From: Planctomycetota bacterium
GTDB taxonomy: Bacteria; Planctomycetota; Phycisphaerae; Phycisphaerales; UBA1924
DNA: 64,000 nucleotides
NCBI GenBank assembly: GCA_024280755.1
Contig: JAJRPN010000019.1
Location: forward strand, 62,001-126,000
Direction of reading: 5' to 3'
Within the stretch, counting starts at the first letter, position 1. Each line of letters begins with the position of its first letter. A model generated the notes under the pieces. That model did no database searches. It was not told where the DNA came from and was given only the letters and a program-made list of their open reading frames with translations. The position numbers and the translations under genes were made by a program. This document shows, piece after piece, positions 1 through 9,203 of this stretch.

Positions 1-1
1 T

Positions 2-298
2 CTGCCGCCGAACGGTGGTCATATCGCGTATGAGGGCGGGTATTTCTTTGGGGGATTTGCCTGTTCTGGGATCAACTACAATCCATATGCTTCGTTTGAG
101 TTTCAGCTTTATTCACGGGGGCGTGTGTTCGATTGTGGAGATGTTAATGGTGATGGTGTGCTGAACTTTTTCGATATTTCAGCGTATCTCGTTCTGTATA
201 ACGAAGGAAGCCCGCATGCGGATCTTAATGGTGATGGTGCGTTGAATTTCTTTGATATTTCCGCGTTCTTGGGTATTTATAGTGCCGGATGTCCGTGA
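2..298 (+). CDS. GC-type dockerin-tailed secreted protein (5' end outside window)
   Basis: Only the last 98 codons are present; the frame is open from base 2 to the TGA at 296-298. It ends with two calcium-binding-loop repeats, GDVNGDGVLNFFDISAYL and ADLNGDGALNFFDISAFL, and the terminal AGCP. This is the GC-type dockerin tail of secreted or anchored Phycisphaerales proteins. The stretch before it (GGYFFGGFACSGINYNPY) closely matches the region before the tail in the protein at 41754-43148, so the two are paralogues. The function of the missing N-terminal part cannot be judged. A strong hairpin terminator follows. Confidence 0.85.
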   Translation: MPPNGGHIAYEGGYFFGGFACSGINYNPYASFEFQLYSRGRVFDCGDVNGDGVLNFFDISAYLVLYNEGSPHADLNGDGALNFFDISAFLGIYSAGCP

Positions 299-328
299 GT
301 TGATCGGATATGATTTGTTTGTAGACAT

Positions 329-361
329 GAAAAAAGCCGCGGGTTGAACCTTCGGCTTTTT
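329..361. terminator. Bidirectional rho-independent terminator
   Basis: AAAAAGCCG pairs with CGGCTTTTT around a loop of about 12 nt, giving A/T tracts on both sides. On the plus strand it ends the dockerin gene. On the minus strand it would have stood about 25 nt beyond the 3' end of tRNA-Phe before the element inserted at 385, so it probably served both convergent genes in the empty site. Confidence 0.8.
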
Positions 362-384
362 CTTAATTGTCCCCTAGTGGGTTA

Positions 385-407
385 AATGGGCATACGCGGA
401 CTTGAAC
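385..407. repeat. att core, left copy
   Basis: This 23-bp sequence begins AATGGGCATACGCGG and ends CTTGAAC. It is identical to 9129-9151 and matches the T-arm and acceptor 3' half of tRNA-Phe. No tRNA follows it here, so it is the partial copy left by tRNA-targeted integration. Confidence 0.92.
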
Positions 408-604
408 ATACCGCATTGGCGCGTATAGAAACGCCGATTTCGGGGAGTGGGGGCGCAGAATCGAGCGCACTTTTGGACGATTCCCGCTCAACGGCCCAAT
501 CTGACCCCGCGCTCGATGAGTTGATCCGGGTTTGGCCGACGCTCCATGAGTGGACGAGATGGCAGATTCGAGAGTTGATTGAAAAACAGAATCAGCCAGA
601 GTGA
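386..604 (+). CDS. Left-end ORF, probably the detached C-terminus of the integrase
   Basis: The 72-codon ORF begins inside the att core (MGIRGLE) in exactly the frame in which the integrase crosses the right core. Joining the ends by excision would fuse integrase residues 1-430 to these 72 residues, giving about 502 aa with no frameshift. It contains GAESSAL, also present at integrase residues 380-386 and encoded by a 21-bp exact DNA repeat. It ends with a tail around VWPTLHEWTRWQIREL; from memory, similar WPTL-type tails end many planctomycete integrases. No good ribosome binding site precedes 386, so it is probably not translated alone in the integrated state. Confidence 0.6.
   Translation: MGIRGLEHTALARIETPISGSGGAESSALLDDSRSTAQSDPALDELIRVWPTLHEWTRWQIRELIEKQNQPE
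452..472. repeat. 21-bp direct repeat shared with integrase tail (left copy)
   Basis: GGCGCAGAATCGAGCGCACTT also occurs at 8977-8997 and encodes GAESSAL in both places. It lies 45 bp inside the left att core, while the partner lies about 130 bp inside the right core. Confidence 0.85.
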
Positions 605-609
605 TTCAT

Positions 610-676
610 GGCACGGCGGTTGCATCGCGCACGCGCGTGCGCGCGTAGTGGTCTCATTGGGCTGAGAAGCCGTGCC
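610..676. repeat. Nested palindrome with alternating CG/CA tract
   Basis: GGCACGGC (610-617) and GCCGTGCC (669-676) form an 8-bp inverted repeat. Between them is a perfect 16-bp palindrome, GCGCACGCGCGTGCGC (627-642), inside a 22-bp strictly alternating pyrimidine-purine run (626-647). It sits between the convergent left-end ORF and the restriction-modification gene. It could act as a terminator, a cruciform or Z-DNA-forming site, or a replication or transfer site; the sequence alone cannot decide. Confidence 0.55.
623..649. repeat. Direct repeat flanking the R-M gene (left copy)
   Basis: CATCGCGCACGCGCG plus CGTAGT, here interrupted by 6 nt (TGCGCG), recurs at 3807-3827. The two copies bracket the restriction-modification gene on both sides. 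Confidence 0.6.
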
Positions 677-685
677 TTTAGATAT

Positions 686-3600
686 TCAGGCCCGTTCTTG
701 ATTCATTCGTAGCAGATTGCCGAGGATCAACTGTTCTACCTCTTCGCGGCGTTCGATCAGGTCATGCCCTTCGGATAAGGGTTGACCAGCTCCGGTCTCC
801 TCAAACACCTCGGCCCATGCCGTATCCCAATCCCCATCAGGATCGATAGTGGCATACGCGGCGAGCACGGCTTCGTCGAGGGCTTTGTGGGCGAGCCTCA
901 ACCATGTTGGGCGTTCGTTGTAGAGGTTCGTCAGGGTTCGCTTCTTGAGCTTTGCATCCTTGGCACACGCGGCATCAATCGCACTCTGGCGGATCAATCG
1001 CTGGGCCTCCTCGCCACTGACGGCGAGCACATCGGCAAAGTCGTCCTCGGCATCAATCCGATCGGCGATGGGCTCCACCCACTCGGGCGGGTTGAGCCAG
1101 CGTTCGCGTTGTTCGTTGAGGGTTGCGGCACACTCGCCAATCGCATCGTGGAGCGGGCGTTGGGGATCACCCTCGCCCGGCTCATGCCCCGGCGACCACG
1201 GGAGCGGGAAGGTCTCGAAACATGTGGTGGGCGTGTAGCGGGGACGGTCTTCGAGTTGTGTGCCTTGACGGAGTGCCCAGAGTTCGTGGATGGTGCTGTG
1301 GAGGGTGCCGAAGAAGTAGTCGTCGGAACGGGCGAAGATGAATAGTCCGTCTGCCGGCACTATCGCACTATCAATCCAACTGAATAATCTGTGCTTGGTG
1401 ACATATGCAGTTGCTAGACATTTTTGATTTGTGCTTTGAGCCTGTCGCATTGCCGGTCTAGTTTCGGCATACAACCACCATCGTTCACGATAAATCTTCC
1501 TCTTGTTTTTGTCTCTTGCAGGCTTCACCATAGTCAAAGCATGATCGAATGGTGATTCATATTGGGACGCGTCACCAATGGTGTCCAAATCGCTAAAATC
1601 GATAATCCATCGCCCAGGGTTTCGCGTTGTCGTCGCTCTTCCATTCATTGTTGGTCGCATGACATCAATATTTGCTTGACCATTTGGATTTCCAGCTTTC
1701 GACAAAAACTCCCTTGATACTGGCCAGTCAAAGTCGAAAGAGCCTGATTTCTTCACACCGATAAGGCATATGTCAATGTTTGATCCCAACTGAGTAGAAA
1801 GAGTCAGATTCACACCACTGGTTAAATCGCTATTTATGAAACCAGTTGGCAAGCCATCCAAGTAGACGGCTTCTTCAGTCTTCGCAAAGCAAACGATAGA
1901 TACATGTACCGATGCACCATCGAGATTCCAATCTTTGTCTGCCCAAGCGTCGAAGATATTATGCGATTCAGAGAGCTTTGATAAAACTGAACGATTGGCT
2001 CCTCCCCGAATACCTTGTGTTGCCAATAAGCCAACTCGTGATTTTTCGCCAAACTTATGGGCAAGTACAAACCAGTAGCAACAAAGATCACTGAAGTTTG
2101 GAATCTTGAAGTTGCTCCACATTGAATCTCTGTACTCAGTACCAAGTGATTCCCAAATCACTGAACCACCAAGGAACGGTGGATTCCCCACGATGAAATC
2201 GGCCTCGGGCCATTTGGCTTGTCCCAAGCACTTCGCGCCCTCGCGCCACACGCTGATCCGTTCGCCATCCTCATCGGCCCATGCCAGAATCGCGTCTCGG
2301 TTTTCGATGGTGTCGATGGGTTCGAGGATGGGGTCTCTGGGGGCGTTGAAGCCATTGTCTCGCATCCATTGGAGGTAGCCGATCCAAATGGCGACCTGCG
2401 CGAGTTCGGAGGCGTAGGGATTGATTTCGATGCCGAGGAGTTGGGTTGGGCGGACGCGCGGGAGCAACCCGGCACCGATTTCGACGCGTGATGCGTAGAG
2501 GATGACTTCTTTTTCGAGGAAGAGGAGTTGCTGGATGGCGACATAGAGGAAGTTGCCCGAGCCACAGGCGGGATCGAGTACGCGGACAGACGAGAGCTTG
2601 GCTTGGAAGCCATCGAGGAGGTTGGCGATTTCGGCATCGGCACTTGCTTTGGTTTTCTTGGTGGTCGATTTACGGCGGCGTTCGAGCTGGGTGTCGATTT
2701 GTTCTTTGGTTTCATCCCATTGCGCGCGGAGTGGCCGCACAATGACTGGCTCGATGACGAGCATAATGTCTTCGCGGCTGGTGTAGTGCGCCCCGATCTG
2801 TGATCGTTTGGATGGATCAAGCGAGCGTTCAAAGAGCGTGCCGAGGATCGAGGGTTCGATTACGGCCCAGTCTTGGATGGCCGCGCTGATTAGGATTTCG
2901 ATTTCGTCGGTGGTGAGTTCGATGGATTCTGCACTGTCGAAAAGCCCGCCATTGAAGTAGTTGATTTCATCAACGCCAAAGTCCCCGCCGGTGCGCATGG
3001 CCTCGAAGAGTTGATCCATCTGCTTCTTGAGCCGAGCGGGGTCATCTTTGGATTTGGTCAACACACGCTCGAAGAGTCCTTTGGGGAGGAGTTCCACATC
3101 CTCAGCGAAGAGGCAGAACATCACCTTCATCAAGAAATGGGCGGCATCATGCGGCTCATGCCCCCGATTACGCAATGCCTGGGCGATGGTGCCGATCTTG
3201 GAAGCGATCTTCTCGGTGATTGCGGCGACGGTTTCGGAGGGTTTGAAGGATTCGGGATCGGTGAAGACCCGTTTGAGGAGGGTGAGTGTGCCGGGATCGG
3301 AGAGTTCATCGAGGGTAAAGGTGAAGACCTCGGGTTTGTAGCCGGTGAAGTTGGTATGGATTTCGTAGTTGGCAATATCACAGACAATCATCAGCGGCGG
3401 GTTCTCTAACCCTTCGCGGTATTGCTGGAGTTGTTGATATGCGGCTGCAAGGTCTTTGTATTTCCCCTTGCGTTTGTACTCCCACGCAAAGCGGCCTTTG
3501 TACCAGACATCCGCGCGGCCATAGGCACCCTTGGAACCAATCGAAGCGGGCCCAGAAACCTTCGCGCCCTTCTCGAATGTGAAGGTGTCCCCAACGGGAT

Positions 3601-3721
3601 CAAGCTCGGCAGGAGTCTTGACACCGAGCAGGCGGCAGAGGTCAATAAAATGTTCTTGTGATGCGGCTTGCTCTGAGAGCTGTGCCTTTGACCACTTGGC
3701 GATAAATGTGGGTGTATCCAT
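686..3721 (-). CDS. Single-chain restriction-modification enzyme, MmeI/type IIG (IIL)-like
   Basis: This 1,011-aa protein cuts and methylates DNA with one polypeptide. Residues D71, E81 and K83 (ADVW...WEYK) form a PD-(D/E)XK nuclease core near the N-terminus. A helical linker follows, then an N6-adenine methyltransferase with motif I DPACGSGNF (383-391) and the catalytic NPPF (513-516). The segment after about residue 600 would hold the target recognition domain. It is defensive cargo of the element, transcribed towards the left att site and divergent from the gene at 4083. No separate specificity or nuclease subunit is nearby, consistent with MmeI-like enzymes. A DISARM or BREX methylase is less likely because no partner genes are present. 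Confidence 0.85.
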   Translation of the reverse strand: MDTPTFIAKWSKAQLSEQAASQEHFIDLCRLLGVKTPAELDPVGDTFTFEKGAKVSGPASIGSKGAYGRADVWYKGRFAWEYKRKGKYKDLAAAYQQLQQYREGLENPPLMIVCDIANYEIHTNFTGYKPEVFTFTLDELSDPGTLTLLKRVFTDPESFKPSETVAAITEKIASKIGTIAQALRNRGHEPHDAAHFLMKVMFCLFAEDVELLPKGLFERVLTKSKDDPARLKKQMDQLFEAMRTGGDFGVDEINYFNGGLFDSAESIELTTDEIEILISAAIQDWAVIEPSILGTLFERSLDPSKRSQIGAHYTSREDIMLVIEPVIVRPLRAQWDETKEQIDTQLERRRKSTTKKTKASADAEIANLLDGFQAKLSSVRVLDPACGSGNFLYVAIQQLLFLEKEVILYASRVEIGAGLLPRVRPTQLLGIEINPYASELAQVAIWIGYLQWMRDNGFNAPRDPILEPIDTIENRDAILAWADEDGERISVWREGAKCLGQAKWPEADFIVGNPPFLGGSVIWESLGTEYRDSMWSNFKIPNFSDLCCYWFVLAHKFGEKSRVGLLATQGIRGGANRSVLSKLSESHNIFDAWADKDWNLDGASVHVSIVCFAKTEEAVYLDGLPTGFINSDLTSGVNLTLSTQLGSNIDICLIGVKKSGSFDFDWPVSREFLSKAGNPNGQANIDVMRPTMNGRATTTRNPGRWIIDFSDLDTIGDASQYESPFDHALTMVKPARDKNKRKIYRERWWLYAETRPAMRQAQSTNQKCLATAYVTKHRLFSWIDSAIVPADGLFIFARSDDYFFGTLHSTIHELWALRQGTQLEDRPRYTPTTCFETFPLPWSPGHEPGEGDPQRPLHDAIGECAATLNEQRERWLNPPEWVEPIADRIDAEDDFADVLAVSGEEAQRLIRQSAIDAACAKDAKLKKRTLTNLYNERPTWLRLAHKALDEAVLAAYATIDPDGDWDTAWAEVFEETGAGQPLSEGHDLIERREEVEQLILGNLLRMNQERA

Positions 3722-3806
3722 GTGCCTAGATCATCGTGTATCTGGACGGATTTGTCCATTCTTCGCATCGAGAGATTTTCATCGTATGGGCAGATATGTT
3801 GCATTC

Positions 3807-3827
3807 CATCGCGCACGCGCGCGTAGT
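3807..3827. repeat. Direct repeat flanking the R-M gene (right copy)
   Basis: CATCGCGCACGCGCGCGTAGT matches 623-649 apart from a 6-nt insertion there. It includes a 16-bp alternating pyrimidine-purine run (3810-3825). A further shared piece, GCGTAGTGGTC, is at 643-653 and 3847-3857. Confidence 0.6.
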
Positions 3828-3944
3828 TGCGTGGAAACTCCCCCATGCGTAGTGGTCGAAAACTCTTCAATCGTTGCTAAACAGCGAAAGAACAGCGATA
3901 AATGGCGATTTCAATGGAATCTCTGCCCTGGCTTACCCGGTGGT

Positions 3945-3974
3945 TTGTCGTTGCTTTGTTTGGTGTGGTATGAT
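3945..3974 (+). promoter_or_regulatory. Candidate sigma-70 promoter for the 455-aa gene
   Basis: TTGTCG (3945-3950) and TATGAT (3969-3974) are separated by 18 bp, which would start transcription near 3981 and give a leader of about 100 nt. No experimental support; it is the best match in the region. Confidence 0.4.
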
Positions 3975-4018
3975 CTATGTCAAATACGGGTTTGTCGGGT
4001 TGCTCCGACGATCAAGCC

Positions 4019-4080
4019 AACGCGGCTGGGCGTTTCACCTTCCAGCCTAGCCGCGTTTGCTTGGCCCGAGGAAGGTGAAA
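4019..4080 (+). promoter_or_regulatory. Leader pseudoknot that can hide the ribosome binding site
   Basis: AACGCGGCT (4019-4027) pairs perfectly with AGCCGCGTT (4049-4057). The loop between them holds TTTCACCTTCC (4033-4043), which is an exact 11-base complement of GGAAGGTGAAA (4070-4080), the ribosome binding site of the gene at 4083. The loop can therefore pair with the downstream site as an H-type pseudoknot, or as an alternative hairpin, and block translation. A smaller stem GTCGG/CCGAC (3994-4009) lies just upstream. Confidence 0.55.
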
Positions 4081-4082
4081 AG

Positions 4083-5450
4083 ATGAACTCAAATGAATAT
4101 TCAATCTGGATAGATTCTCTTTTTCAGCGAGGCAGGAAGCTGATTCTCAATGATCTAACATCATTTCAAATCGCTGGCGCATTGATCTCAACCACTTTTT
4201 CAAATGACTTTGCAAGAAACCCAAACCATGATGAGGACTTGATAGACCTTCCACGGCAAAGCTTCTCCAATGAGCAGCTTTTATTGCCCCGATTGTGTTT
4301 GGCTAAATCAGCAGCACTAAATCCAAGCTCATCACCTACATCATCAAATCTTTTTTTTGGCCCTTCTGAAACGATGAACAATCGCTTACTTGCTGCTAGA
4401 CAAGTGGTAATTATTCTTCTCCTAGCAGCTGACCCTGACGCAAACGAATACATCAGTCCACAAATGTGTGAACTTGCTGAGTTGCCGTTTGAACTCCAGA
4501 TATTCAATCAAAAAGAAGATGATGAGAGTTTTTTACTCGGCAGGGGGACTCTATGTTGGGATTGGGCAGGGGAAGATGAAAATATGTGTCCCCAAGGTGT
4601 ATCTACACACAGTTTTCCAACTCCAAAATCAATGGAGATTTTAAGAACAGCAATCGAGTTAATTGATTCAGGACGAGCCCAAGAGGCTCATTCCCGTAAA
4701 AAAAAACCTGGCCGTGTTGTATTGGATTTGGACTGCACTCTGCGTGGAAAAAACAAACTCGATGAGTTATACCGGGCTTTGCGAGATGTATTGAGAATTG
4801 TCGGTATTTTCAAGATGAATGCTGATGACTGGTGTGAGCGTCTACAGTTGTTTGGTGATGAACGAAACGAGAAACAAGAAGAGATTCTTGTATTCAATCG
4901 GCAATGTTGGACAGATTGGGATTTGGCAATCGCCCGTGCGCGCGATGCTTTGCTTGAAGCCAAGCTTCAACAATACGGTATCGAAGCAGAACCTGTATTG
5001 GGTGCCTTGGGAGTGTTGAGAAGTATATTTTCACCCCCAATTATTATTTCAGGCCATGAAGAACTCGGAGACCATTTAATAATTCGTGGTGCTGCTCCTC
5101 TTGCGTGCAATCGTAAAGGAGAATCTAATTTTCCTGACGAACGGGTCAACGATGCCTTCCGTCCTATCAATCAAGTTCTTGGAACGCTCAATCTCTTTGT
5201 GCTTGATCTATCACCGGCACCTACATGTTCGATTCAAATGGATATGAAACCAGCCCGTTGGTATACAAAGACAACCCGAGGAGCATTATCAGGTGATACT
5301 CTGCGAAAAGCTGTCCAACGCAAAGCATTGACCCGTTCCGTACAACCAAATCCGGGAAAAGAGTGGTGCCATTTGGTCACGGAAGTATGCGATGTATATG
5401 CCGAGTATGCGCCGAAGATACGCAGTGCCCTAGCAAATGAACAGGAATGA
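4083..5450 (+). CDS. Unrecognised 455-aa cargo protein
   Basis: The start is chosen at ATG 4083 because GAGGAAGGTG lies 5 nt upstream; the same frame is open further upstream but without signals. I do not recognise a family. The protein looks soluble, with no signal peptide or membrane segment. Several Cys and Trp residues are scattered through it (for example DWCERL, CWTDWD, WCHLV). A basic stretch near residue 203 (SRKKKPGR) precedes VVLDLDCTL, and a compact C-terminal region includes SIQMDMKPARWYTKT. It lies back to back with the R-M gene and upstream of the replication genes. A defence, anti-defence or maintenance role is possible from position only. Translation may be controlled by the leader pseudoknot. 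Confidence 0.65.
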   Translation: MNSNEYSIWIDSLFQRGRKLILNDLTSFQIAGALISTTFSNDFARNPNHDEDLIDLPRQSFSNEQLLLPRLCLAKSAALNPSSSPTSSNLFFGPSETMNNRLLAARQVVIILLLAADPDANEYISPQMCELAELPFELQIFNQKEDDESFLLGRGTLCWDWAGEDENMCPQGVSTHSFPTPKSMEILRTAIELIDSGRAQEAHSRKKKPGRVVLDLDCTLRGKNKLDELYRALRDVLRIVGIFKMNADDWCERLQLFGDERNEKQEEILVFNRQCWTDWDLAIARARDALLEAKLQQYGIEAEPVLGALGVLRSIFSPPIIISGHEELGDHLIIRGAAPLACNRKGESNFPDERVNDAFRPINQVLGTLNLFVLDLSPAPTCSIQMDMKPARWYTKTTRGALSGDTLRKAVQRKALTRSVQPNPGKEWCHLVTEVCDVYAEYAPKIRSALANEQE

Positions 5451-5552
5451 CCCCGCCCCAAACCCCGCCCGTACCCCGCCCAAGTACGGAACACCCCGCC
5501 CATTCACAAAGTAAGACTTTGCTTATTTCTTGAGCATTGAAATAGTTTGGGC

Positions 5553-5756
5553 ATGAACTATCAACATAAACAATCAACCTTTGTACCCATTCTCCAAGCA
5601 TCACATGAACTCGGGGTGCCTTCTGCATGGCTAAGGCGTGAAGCCCAATCCGGTCGCATCCCTGCTATCAAAGCTGGAAGACGGTGGCTGGTTCACCTTG
5701 AACGCGCCCGCATCAAACTCGCTGAATATGCAGAGCGTGAAGGGGGTGCCGAGTGA
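5553..5756 (+). CDS. Small HTH protein (excisionase/MerR-like), first of two
   Basis: A 67-aa protein with the pattern ILQASHELGVPSAWLRREAQ followed by a basic wing (IPAIKAGRRWLVHL), as in winged-helix excisionase and MerR-like domains that read DNA and control excision or replication. ATG 5553 is preferred over the in-frame TTG 5547. It begins a chain of four genes (to 7754) in which each stop overlaps the next start, so they are almost certainly co-transcribed and translationally coupled. Confidence 0.7.
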   Translation: MNYQHKQSTFVPILQASHELGVPSAWLRREAQSGRIPAIKAGRRWLVHLERARIKLAEYAEREGGAE

Positions 5757-5974
5757 ACAACTGGCAACCTTCGACATCGACTTCCAATCCCTCCTCAGAG
5801 CCTCGGCTAACACTCCGCAAGCAGGAAGCCGCCAAAGCACTTGGAATATCTGAACGGACTCTCCATGCACTTCTCAAATCTGGGCAGATCGGATCATTCA
5901 AACTTAATCGAGCCGTGTTGATCCCGGTTGCCGAGCTTGAGGCGTTTATCGCGCGGAAGGGAGGGCTGGATTAA
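5753..5974 (+). CDS. Small HTH excisionase-like protein, second of two
   Basis: A 73-aa protein that starts with GTG overlapping the previous TGA (GTGA). It has a typical excisionase-family helix-turn-helix: RKQEAAKALGISERTLHALL, then the wing QIGSFKLNRAVLIPVAEL. It probably binds att or replication-region DNA. Two adjacent HTH proteins of this size may act as Xis plus regulator; which one is the directionality factor is not clear from sequence. Confidence 0.75.
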   Translation: MNNWQPSTSTSNPSSEPRLTLRKQEAAKALGISERTLHALLKSGQIGSFKLNRAVLIPVAELEAFIARKGGLD

Positions 5975-6378
5975 TGGAACCCAATCTATTCGACCAAAGC
6001 AATACCCCGCTGGCAGGCAAGGGGAATGCGAAAAACTCTGAGCAACATCATACACGATCATCTTCCAGTATGCGTCCGCTATTCCGACGCAACGCGCCAA
6101 AAGGCACCTCGGAAGTAGCTGCCCAAATGATCGCTTCACGCACGCCCAATCAACGGGCACGAATCTATCGAGCGATTCTGGCGAGCGGGGCGCACGGTCT
6201 CACCGACGATGAAGGCGAGATTCAACTCGATATATTTGCAGCCAGTTATTCAGCCCGACGCGGCGAGCTTGTGAATCTGGGTTTGATCCGAGATACAGAG
6301 AATCGGCGACTGACCCAACGCGGATGCCCCGCAGCCGTGTGGGTAGCGATTGCCCAGTGGGATGGGGGTGAAGCATGA
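5974..6378 (+). CDS. Winged-helix-like protein of the replication cluster
   Basis: A 134-aa protein whose start overlaps the previous stop (TAATG). The N-terminal 45 residues are polar and probably disordered. Residues about 55-125 (TPNQRARIYRAIL, then TDDEGEIQLDI, SARRGELVNLGLI) fit a winged-helix fold common in phage and element replication regions. Its place just before the helicase gene suggests an accessory or regulatory replication role, but this is inference. Confidence 0.65.
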   Translation: MEPNLFDQSNTPLAGKGNAKNSEQHHTRSSSSMRPLFRRNAPKGTSEVAAQMIASRTPNQRARIYRAILASGAHGLTDDEGEIQLDIFAASYSARRGELVNLGLIRDTENRRLTQRGCPAAVWVAIAQWDGGEA

Positions 6379-7754
6379 GTATTTCACCTGTAGTGCAGAG
6401 TGTTCTTGATGAACTAAAGGCACAAGGATTTGAACCAAAGAAATCGGGGAGAGAATGGAAGTGCAAATGTCCGGTTCATCTGGGAGACAAAGCGGATTTA
6501 CGGATCGGTGTTGGGCCGGATGGTCTCGTATCGTTTCATTGTCGGCACCAATGCTCGGCACTGTCAGTTATTGAAGCGATCGGATTGGATCGTGAGTTAT
6601 TGTCAAGTATATTTCAGCAAGAGTTATCGCAGGCAGTTGCAGTTTGTGGCAACCCGGTTCTCTTGTGCGCAGCTGATGTGCAGGCGCAAGAAGTGAGTTG
6701 GCTATGGGCAGGCCGACTCCCATTAGGACGGCTGAGTTTGTTGGTGGGTCGCCCCGGTGAGGGTAAATCATTCGCCACACTCGATTGGGCTGCAAGGGTA
6801 AGCACCGGGCGTGATTGGCCCGATGGATCATCGTGTGAAGCGGGAAGCGTGTTGTTGGTATCGGCAGAGGACGATCCCGGCGATACCATCCGCCCTCGGC
6901 TGGATGCCCATGAAGCTGATCCTCTCCGAATCCACATGCTCACGGGTATTTACGCACAAGACAAGCATGGAAAACTGATCGAAGGGGCATTTACACTGGC
7001 CAATATTGAGACGCTGAGGCACGCGCTCAAAACCATCGGAAATGTTCGGTTGATTGTGATTGATCCAATCGGCTCATACATGGGCGGGAAGGTTGATGCA
7101 CATCGAGATAATGAAGTACGCGGAGTGTTAGCACCATTGGCTGCACTTGCAAAGGAATCAAACGCAGCGGTGGTATTGGTTGCCCACCAGCGCAAGGGCA
7201 AAGCAGTAAATCCGGACGATATGACTCTGGGATCAACGGGATTCGTAGGGCTTGCCCGTTCGGTGCTGCACCTGATGCGTGATCCTGATGATGAGGATCG
7301 GCGGTTGTTGTTGCCTGGCAAAATGAATCTGGCTGTTCCCGCGCCCGGGTTGGCATTCACGATCGAGGGTGAACCTGCTCGGGTGCAATGGGCATCCGAC
7401 CCGGTCAGTATCACAGCCGCCGAAGTGCTCGCTAAGAGCGGCAGGGGGAACAGCGCGGCATGTGAAGCAGAGGAATGGCTCTGCGATGTGCTCAGTAATG
7501 GCCCAGTGGAATCGAGCAAAGTCAAAGATATGGCAAATACGGACGGTTTGGCATGGCGAACTGTTGAGCGAGCCAAGGAAAAAATCGGAGCCAAATCTAC
7601 ACGGGAAGGGTACTCAAATGATGGGCGTTGGATGATGGTAATACCCACCATAGACCGCCATGCTGAATCAAAGGCCGCCGACCCCGCCATAGAGGGAGAT
7701 GTGGCGGACTATGGCGGTGTATGTGATTCTGAGCAATCGAATGGGATGCCCTAG
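6375..7754 (+). CDS. RepA-like replication ATPase with N-terminal zinc motif
   Basis: A 459-aa protein whose ATG overlaps the preceding TGA (ATGA). Residues 28-60 carry Cys/His pairs (WKCKCPVHLG ... FHCRHQC), as in primase zinc-binding domains. Walker A GRPGEGKS is at 125-132, followed by the Walker B-like strand VRLIVIDPIGSY and a sensor strand AAVVLVAHQRKGK, typical of RepA/RecA-fold hexameric helicases of plasmids and integrative elements. The C-terminus resembles a winged helix. It probably drives replication of the excised circle. There is no separate primase, so the zinc region may assist priming. Confidence 0.8.
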   Translation: MSISPVVQSVLDELKAQGFEPKKSGREWKCKCPVHLGDKADLRIGVGPDGLVSFHCRHQCSALSVIEAIGLDRELLSSIFQQELSQAVAVCGNPVLLCAADVQAQEVSWLWAGRLPLGRLSLLVGRPGEGKSFATLDWAARVSTGRDWPDGSSCEAGSVLLVSAEDDPGDTIRPRLDAHEADPLRIHMLTGIYAQDKHGKLIEGAFTLANIETLRHALKTIGNVRLIVIDPIGSYMGGKVDAHRDNEVRGVLAPLAALAKESNAAVVLVAHQRKGKAVNPDDMTLGSTGFVGLARSVLHLMRDPDDEDRRLLLPGKMNLAVPAPGLAFTIEGEPARVQWASDPVSITAAEVLAKSGRGNSAACEAEEWLCDVLSNGPVESSKVKDMANTDGLAWRTVERAKEKIGAKSTREGYSNDGRWMMVIPTIDRHAESKAADPAIEGDVADYGGVCDSEQSNGMP

Positions 7755-7839
7755 TTGATTTTTACGGCCCCAATCTGAGCAATGACACTCGCATCGTCGA
7801 TACGAATACGGTAGAATTAATTACGGAAGGCGAAAAATA

Positions 7840-9192
7840 ATGGCATCACTCACACGCGACAAAGGCGGCTCCAAGCGCATCCTGTTCATGTTTGCCAAAG
7901 GCGATCGGCGCACGATTCGGCTGGGCAAGATCAATGTTAAGTCAGCCGAGGCGTTCAAGGTTCGAGTGGAGCCGTTGATCGCAGCGATGCAGACAAATAC
8001 TTCGATTGCTCCAGAGACCACGCAATGGCTTCTAGGACTTCCAGACGACACATATGCCAAACTGGTGTTGGTCGGGCTAGCCGAGGCAAGAGAGCGAACA
8101 CAAACGCACACTCTGGGAATGATGCTTGATGAGTATTTCGCGACGATGAGTGTGAAGGAATCTACTCGTATTCGATATGCCCAGACCAAGCGGCTGCTCA
8201 TTGACTACTTCGGGAAGGATCGCCCGGTTGACTCAATCAGCACGCTTGATGGTGACAAATGGCGGGCGTGGTTGTGTGAGAAGGGATACGCCGAAGCCAA
8301 GATTGGGCGTGATGTTCGTGGGGCGCGGATGTACTTCAAGAAGGCTATGAAGTGGGGAATGATTCCTAGTAATCCGTTTGAGGATGTGAAAGCGGGGCGG
8401 ATAACGAACCGGACAAAAGCGTTCTTTGTGACTCCCGAAGCCACATTCAAGATCACCGAAGCGTGCCCTGATGCTGATTGGCGGTGCATTGTGGCACTGG
8501 CTCGGTTTGGTGGGTTGCGTTGCCCGTCGGAAGTGTTGGGGGTTCGCTGGGCAGATGTTGACTGGTCGAGCAATCGGTTCAGGGTGCGATCGCCAAAGAC
8601 TGAGCATCACCAAGGCAAGGCCGAGCGGATGGTGCCGCTGTTTCCTGAGCTTCGGACTGTGCTCATGCAGGCCTTTGAGTGTGCCCCCGATGGTGCTGAG
8701 TTTGTTGTGGGGCGGTATCGAGACATAGGGGCGAATCTGGGTACGCATATGCGTCGGATCATCGAACGGGCGGGTTTGCAAGCATGGCCTAAGCTGTTCA
8801 ATAACATGCGAGCAAGCCGAGCGACTGAGTTGGCACTTGAATATCCGGCTGCTCAATGCACTGCATGGATGGGGCATTCACAGGCCATTGCTGAGGCTCA
8901 TTACCACATGGTTCGGGATGAGGATTATGAGCGTGCAGCATCGACACCGATACCGATCAAGCAACCCGAAAAGAGTGGCGCAGAATCGAGCGCACTTGGG
9001 GCGCAAATGGCAGCGCAGCAGCAATCCGCAACAACCGGCAAAGAGAATCAAAATAGTGCGCAAACTAAAAAGGAACCAGCACTTATGCTGATTCCTTCTG
9101 GTCTTTGCAGTTCTTTGCAGAACCAATCAATGGGCATACGCGGACTTGAACCACGGACACCGGCATTTTCAATGCCGTGCTCTACCAACTGA
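7840..9192 (+). CDS. Tyrosine-type site-specific integrase
   Basis: A 450-aa integrase catalysing recombination between the element and tRNA-Phe. GGAAGG at 7825-7830 supports ATG 7840. A SAM-like core-binding domain spans about 90-185. Catalytic residues are R227 (GGLRCPSE), K253, R324 in NNMRASR (the box II histidine is Asn, as in other planctomycete integrases), H346 (WMGHSQ) and Y355 (HYHM). Residues 431-450 are encoded by the att core and the antisense strand of tRNA-Phe (GIRGLEPRTPAF...), so the end of the protein depends on what DNA lies beyond the core. In the circular form it would be extended by the ORF at 386-604. Confidence 0.93.
   Translation: MASLTRDKGGSKRILFMFAKGDRRTIRLGKINVKSAEAFKVRVEPLIAAMQTNTSIAPETTQWLLGLPDDTYAKLVLVGLAEARERTQTHTLGMMLDEYFATMSVKESTRIRYAQTKRLLIDYFGKDRPVDSISTLDGDKWRAWLCEKGYAEAKIGRDVRGARMYFKKAMKWGMIPSNPFEDVKAGRITNRTKAFFVTPEATFKITEACPDADWRCIVALARFGGLRCPSEVLGVRWADVDWSSNRFRVRSPKTEHHQGKAERMVPLFPELRTVLMQAFECAPDGAEFVVGRYRDIGANLGTHMRRIIERAGLQAWPKLFNNMRASRATELALEYPAAQCTAWMGHSQAIAEAHYHMVRDEDYERAASTPIPIKQPEKSGAESSALGAQMAAQQQSATTGKENQNSAQTKKEPALMLIPSGLCSSLQNQSMGIRGLEPRTPAFSMPCSTN
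8977..8997. repeat. 21-bp direct repeat shared with left-end ORF (right copy)
   Basis: This repeat is identical to 452-472 and encodes GAESSAL at integrase residues 380-386, just after the catalytic domain. The duplicated peptide on both sides of the att junction suggests that the integrase tail was duplicated when the att site became part of the coding sequence. Confidence 0.8.
9064..9097 (-). terminator. Terminator for tRNA-Phe embedded in the integrase gene
   Basis: Read on the minus strand, AAGGAATCAGC and GCTGGTTCCTT pair over 11 positions (one G-U) around a 6-nt loop and are followed by TTTTT. This lies about 33 nt beyond the 3' end of tRNA-Phe. On the plus strand the same stem has an A-C mismatch and no T tract, so it should not stop the integrase message. 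The element thus replaces the host terminator at 329-361 that its insertion moved away. Confidence 0.7.
9129..9151. repeat. att core, right copy (inside tRNA-Phe and the integrase frame)
   Basis: Identical to 385-407. It covers the 3' end of tRNA-Phe and codons 430-437 of the integrase. Confidence 0.92.
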
Positions 9193-9203
9193 GCTATATG
9201 CCC
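9131..9203 (-). tRNA. tRNA-Phe (GAA)
   Basis: A 73-nt cloverleaf on the minus strand: acceptor GGGCATA/TATGCCC, D-arm GCTC...GAGC, anticodon stem CGGCA/TGCCG with loop TTGAAAA (anticodon GAA), T-arm CGTGG/CCGCG with loop TTCAAGT, discriminator A. CCA is not encoded. It is the integration target of the element. Confidence 0.93.

Follow-up and report, generated by a model that had tools for sequence, protein, structure and literature searches.

The 64-kb stretch of contig JAJRPN010000019.1 from a Planctomycetota bacterium analyzed here (the window) harbors an 8744-bp integrative element inserted at a tRNA-Phe gene, and the sequence indicates that integration exchanges the C-terminus of the tyrosine integrase encoded by this element. 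Our best explanation, to which we assign a probability of about 0.7, is that the attachment site of the free element (attP) lies inside the integrase gene, that the free form encodes a long enzyme, that the C-terminal tail is lost on integration and that the enzyme thereby reports the state of the element. Judged from sequence, the geometry of the exchange is there, is conserved in the family and is seen in both of its states, namely in integrated elements and in the viral contigs of relatives.

Predicted exchange of the integrase C-terminus in the window

The element is bounded by two copies of an exact 23-bp direct repeat, AATGGGCATACGCGGACTTGAAC, which has no further copy in the 64 kb (Table 1). 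The right copy overlaps the 3′ end of the tRNA-Phe gene in frame with the integrase open reading frame (ORF), and the ATG at 9130, within this core, is codon 431 of that ORF. The integrated form has 450 codons, the final 20 of which are core and antisense tRNA-Phe. Joining the right end to the left end, as predicted for the circle, gives a single open frame of 502 codons that ends in WPTLHEWTRWQIRELIEKQNQPE, while the two shifted frames of the left end stop after 6 and 31 codons. The original prediction had proposed a core crossed by the integrase frame at codon 431, a left-end ORF beginning in the core at 386 in the same frame, and a 502-codon circle ORF as against a 450-residue integrated form ending in antisense tRNA-Phe; the exact repeat, the ORF reading and the translation of the ends, joined as predicted, bear out all of these points.

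Table 1. Features of the element and its borders in the window.
Feature	Position	Strand	Evidence or remark
Terminator-like hairpin with T run, host flank, just before left core	322..372	+	Fold -18.6 kcal/mol, z -4.4
Left core (attL side)	385..407	+	Exact 23-bp repeat
Left-end orphan frame, 72 codons from core ATG	386..604	+	Integrase C-terminal tail in predicted circle
Direct repeat past core inside tail frame, probable other-arm site	452..469	+	Sequence identical to 8977-8994
MmeI-like type IIG restriction-modification protein (element cargo)	686..3721	-	Pfam/PADLOC-type matches
Small helix-turn-helix (HTH) protein, excisionase-like	5547..5756	+	PHROG 1840 excisionase, E 1.2e-5
Small HTH protein, excisionase-like	5753..5974	+	PHROG 66, E 2.1e-9; HTH_17
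AAA_25 ATPase, primase/helicase-like	6375..7754	+	Pfam AAA_25, E 6.3e-35
Tyrosine integrase ORF, integrated form, 450 aa	7840..9192	+	Codons 1-430 element, remainder core and antisense tRNA-Phe
Direct repeat GGCGCA-N6-AGCGCA before core, probable arm-type site	8977..8994	+	Repeat search; GCA codon excess in relatives
Second direct repeat before core, probable arm-type site	9000..9017	+	Repeat search
Right core (attR side), overlaps tRNA-Phe 3′ end	9129..9151	+	Exact 23-bp repeat
tRNA-Phe (gaa), integration target	9131..9203	-	Element-free tRNA-Phe in same-genus L269

With a tRNA 3′-end repeat at both ends and both an occupied and an empty site on record, the element belongs to the tRNA-targeted integrative elements; the empty site is that of L269, from the same genus, where sequence like the left flank lies directly upstream of the element-free tRNA-Phe. 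Integrase relatives were found in 14 of the 21 genomes of the genus that were searched. One of them, L268 (integrase 90% identical), occupies the same site and yields a circle ORF of 502 codons with a homologous tail, and another, L270 (83% identical), yields a circle ORF of 500 codons. The open fused frame of the window is therefore more than chance.

The window integrase matches the PHROG 1 integrase (E 6.8e-29) and scores 26.1 bits against Pfam Phage_integrase, slightly below the cut-off of 27.1. Residues Arg324, Lys253 and Tyr355, which we take to be catalytic, are invariant in 19/19 aligned relatives, and the best PDB matches of a structural model of a relative (L166, see below) are tyrosine recombinases, including Tn1549 and lambda Int. 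Catalytic fold and nucleophilic tyrosine thus identify the protein as a tyrosine recombinase of the phage integrase kind.

A separate 72-residue peptide started by the core ATG at 386 was also considered. We think it unlikely, because many other left ends do not have this ATG and because a terminator-like hairpin precedes it, while a scan of window positions 1-1000 listed no promoter-like site. The hairpin itself was not listed by a simple terminator pattern scan.

Conservation of in-frame tails in the family

In a sample of the phylum, integrase relatives at 1e-15 or better were present in 52 of 392 genomes, and no relative was found in plasmid and phage records searched at 1e-5. A scan of viral sequences with the single joined protein gave one distant match, and the same scan with an alignment query gave 66 loci, 30 of which (L190-L219) were excluded as too distant or partial. 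The pooled set of 173 loci comprised the window, 56 genome regions (one a duplicate), 80 contig loci and the 36 remaining viral loci (L154-L189). Removal of nine duplicates, among them L065 (same integrase as L041; the second integrase of L065 was outside the analysis), left 164 loci, and six of these had no intact ORF. L038, with a 36-bp core and an in-frame tail, was kept out of the counts, as ARAGORN found no tRNA there.

Of the 158 intact integrase ORFs, 107 extend into an antisense tRNA at its 3′ end, and 13 tRNA isotypes are represented. These are 44 of the 56 intact ORFs from genome regions (window included), 60 of the 70 from contig loci and 3 of the 32 from viral contigs. A tally of the tRNA reading frames (52, 41 and 14) was not used, because the tRNA ends given by ARAGORN vary slightly between loci and shift the class.

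The displaced core was sought upstream of the 112 ORFs that have an antisense tRNA nearby, and an exact match of at least 15 bp was found for 35 of them and of at least 17 bp for 31; L268, L270, L275 and L278-L283 are outside these sets of 35 and 31 elements. A single open frame such as that of the window would be weak evidence, since from base composition alone a frame at a left end would stay open over 40 codons or more in a fraction of about 0.29, and it could be argued that high G+C content frequently leaves such ends open by accident and that the fused frame is meaningless. Past the core, the integrase frame is open for at least 40 codons in 29/31 elements with a core of at least 17 bp, as against 6/31 and 8/31 for the shifted frames, and it is the longest of the three in 21/31. 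Leave-one-out profiles (E<1e-3) recognized the tail in frame in 29/35 elements and in the shifted frames in 0 and 1. Coincidence is not sustained at the family level, where homologous tails occur in frame only and uninterrupted long forms exist in viral contigs, and we regard it as highly improbable. By eye, the tail also stays in frame where the core is translated in another frame, as in L140 (WAHEDSN), L141 (WAVQDLN) and L049 (GPDRTRN). Homologous elements whose left-end ORF was not conserved or was out of frame had been named in advance as grounds for refuting the prediction; the left ends of integrated relatives did not refute it, although L238, L051 and L056 and the ORFs that stop inside the core depart from it.

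The long form could be seen in relatives. A tail profile was built solely from 32 left-end tails of integrated elements and run on the 164 integrase ORFs as they stand. It found a C-terminal tail in six ORFs (L154, L163, L165, L166, L170 and L174), all of them from viral contigs and none ending at a tRNA; the genome-derived integrase ORFs of the set gave no such tail. The other ten matches (E 1e-4 to 8e-3) correspond to the repeat-encoded peptide before the core. In the remaining tRNA-less viral ORFs, many of which are distant relatives or end at a contig edge, no tail was seen by the profile. Downstream of its integrase gene, L170 encodes a portal protein. The contigs with a joined tail, which may represent free phages, offer the nearest view of both states. 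They supply the full-length homologues with a left-end tail that had been anticipated and, together with the in-frame left ends, strongly support the exchange of the integrase C-terminus by integration.

Probable attachment-site repeats and the conserved tail

Part of the conservation appears to reside in the DNA, a point absent from the original prediction. The repeat GRCGCA-N6-GRCGCA occurs three times in the window, always beside the core (452, 8977 and 9000), while block shuffles give an expectation of 0.06 per strand. A slightly looser form lies past the core in 19/31 elements, at 40-59 nt and mostly near 44, and before the core in 22/31; the rest of the elements has 0.008 per kb. In the GGAESGA peptide of the tails, GCA accounts for 53 of 65 alanine codons, whereas in the bodies of these genes it accounts for 168 of 1498 (Fisher P 2.6e-36). 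These repeats are probably arm-type integrase sites flanking the core, so that attP would lie inside the integrase gene and the conservation of the tail would not all be due to protein function. It may be asked whether the left end is conserved simply as the second arm of attP, with the open frame and the tail as a by-product that has no protein function. The nearly fixed distance of the repeat past the core and the GCA excess are in line with this, and so is the pair L273/L275, in which the tail DNA is more conserved than the body at synonymous sites and the ratio of non-synonymous to synonymous substitution (dN/dS) of the tail is 2.99; the tails of this pair have 2 synonymous changes, and the dS of the body is 0.99.

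Other properties of the tail point to a protein under selection. Leave-one-out profiles limited to the sequence that follows the DNA repeats still recognized 24/32 tails in frame, and 0 and 0 in the shifted frames. Across ten distant pairs without overlap, differences are most numerous at codon position 3 (205 vs 146 and 113), and in the closest pair, the window and L268, dN/dS is 0.26 for the tail and 0.12 for the body (Fisher P 0.0015 on rounded counts). An AlphaFold2 model of the natural long form of L166 (35 rows; mean predicted local distance difference test score, pLDDT, 83.6) has a disordered stretch at 377-452, the site of the core peptide, followed by a tail predicted with high confidence as a hairpin of helices 463-474 and 477-495. 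Conservation of the left end for its DNA alone therefore seems unlikely to us.

The exchange might also alter the lifetime of the protein or the end of its mRNA rather than its catalytic behavior. After integration the transcript runs antisense into the tRNA gene, and in mycobacteriophages a degradation tag is lost in an integration-dependent manner. In their integration-dependent immunity, integration alters the C-terminus of a regulatory protein; attP lies there in the repressor gene, whereas in the planctomycete elements it lies in the integrase gene. The planctomycete tails, however, end in many different residues with no common tag by eye, and the tail is a predicted folded hairpin, so that an effect on stability or dosage is even less probable than conservation for DNA alone.

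Several observations, in addition to the L273/L275 ratio, weigh against an exchangeable, functional tail. The circle junction was sought in the assembly and not found, and the fused frame of the window is thus a predicted one. The tail dN/dS was 0.69 and 0.90 in two comparisons with L270. L074 and L275, likewise at tRNA-Phe, have an open and different tail without the WPxL helix, and L238, L051 and L056 lack a normal tail; the 15-bp core match of L051 is probably due to chance. No swap is seen for the integrases L042, L066, L153 and L157, nor for the same-genus L279, L281 and L282, all of which stop inside the core. Finally, the core was not found for 77 of the 112 tRNA-ended ORFs in the upstream sequence searched; this sequence ranges from almost none to about 57 kb per integrase, and because it is so uneven, the missing cores are not evidence of absence.

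Comparison with known systems

The closest parallel is the Myxococcus phage Mx8. According to a review (PMC6070905), its attP lies within int, which receives a new 3′ end upon integration, and the altered enzyme remains active with a changed specificity. Like Mx8, the planctomycete element has its attP core inside the integrase frame with in-frame coding on both sides. A TGLEPVLLG stretch inside Mx8 Int (L277, 5085-6809), with about 100 residues after it, resembles the stretches given by antisense tRNA in the planctomycete family. One pairwise BLASTP revealed no sequence kinship to Mx8 Int (best E 5.8), though the two may be distantly related. Mx8 is one phage, whereas the planctomycete family is large and has 13 tRNA isotypes, a helical tail in common and repeats that lie within the gene. 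Our literature searches, which are silent on papers outside the collection searched, found no prior description of a planctomycete case. On this basis, Mx8 is a published precedent for the principle, while the planctomycete elements, as a family with a conserved tail and with repeats inside the gene, look like a new variation on it.

Archaeal suicidal (SSV-type) integrases also carry the att site in the integrase gene, which is split at a tRNA by integration, and there the catalytic C-terminal part is separated and the fragments are inactive (PMC8371274). In the planctomycete element the catalytic part stays whole and the tail alone is exchanged: the gene is cut at codon 430, beyond Tyr355, and the corresponding region of the L166 model is a disordered linker, which sets it apart from the suicidal type. 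In pleolipoviruses, a coding sequence that spans attP is broken in the provirus (PMC7911831); it is a gene of its own, located downstream of the integrase, whereas here it is the integrase itself. The 2021 review on the archaeal integrases describes recombinases that disrupt their own gene as exclusively archaeal (PMC8371274), a claim on which the planctomycete family bears.

A recombinase whose product depends on its own past action would constitute a built-in memory element. To our knowledge, such recombinases in bacteria are known mainly from single phages such as Mx8, and a whole family with a recognizable tail opens the role of the lost tail to comparative and bench study. Compact and possibly self-limiting integrases could also be of use in strain engineering. 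Annotators should bear in mind that, where an element has integrated at a tRNA, the apparent end of its integrase can be encoded by antisense tRNA and a small ORF at the left end can be an integrase tail.

Proposed mechanism

We propose that the small element uses its tyrosine integrase to recombine at the tRNA-Phe 3′ end, with an attP laid out inside the integrase gene as repeated sites, then the core, then one repeated site. The free circle would encode a long integrase, in which a flexible linker, its sequence set by attP, connects the catalytic part to a helical tail at the C-terminus. On integration, strand exchange within the core would split the gene, the tail staying at the left end as an orphan frame behind the terminator-like hairpin and the catalytic part being closed by a few antisense-tRNA codons. 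With a linker that is predicted to be disordered and whose codons probably act as DNA sites, the gene would tolerate any peptide imposed by a tRNA.

That the swap acts as a switch of enzyme activity, as the original prediction had it, we infer from the analogy with Mx8 and from purifying selection in one close pair. The long form would be the integrating form, and loss of the tail would damp or redirect the integrated enzyme, which may be less able to re-integrate or may need an excisionase; the direction of the change is presumed. The enzyme would in this way report whether the element is free or integrated, and one of the HTH proteins may drive excision. A more far-reaching view, which we hold tentatively and at somewhat below even odds, is that a broad clade of Planctomycetota has integrases with a C-terminal sensor domain present only when unintegrated, in which the gene also serves as attP and the linker codons are arm sites. 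A single reaction would then move the DNA, rearrange attP and turn an integrating enzyme into a non-integrating one. Such a self-recording directionality switch, contained in one gene, would have arisen independently of Mx8.

Other observations

On the plus strand of the window, an open frame of up to 639 aa (3531-5450) has a provisional start, since it overlaps the restriction gene; Pfam and PADLOC searches of its product gave no match. In close integrase relatives of the same genus at tRNA-Ile and tRNA-Leu (L278-L282), the frame through the tRNA is a different one (GPGQT or GPGGT), and three of these five integrases stop inside the tRNA; their left end was not found in the sequence searched. 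L283 has a 24-bp core, before which the integrase stops. In one genome, related integrases (L056 and L070) lie about 14 kb apart on the same strand, the former ending at tRNA-Met, an arrangement that suggests tandem elements. At the left end closer to L056, the frame of the L056 integrase is not continued. Finally, family members L078 and L150 were found in contigs labelled as Cyanobacteria and Actinomycetes metagenome-assembled genomes, which reflects either mislabelled bins or spread beyond Planctomycetota.

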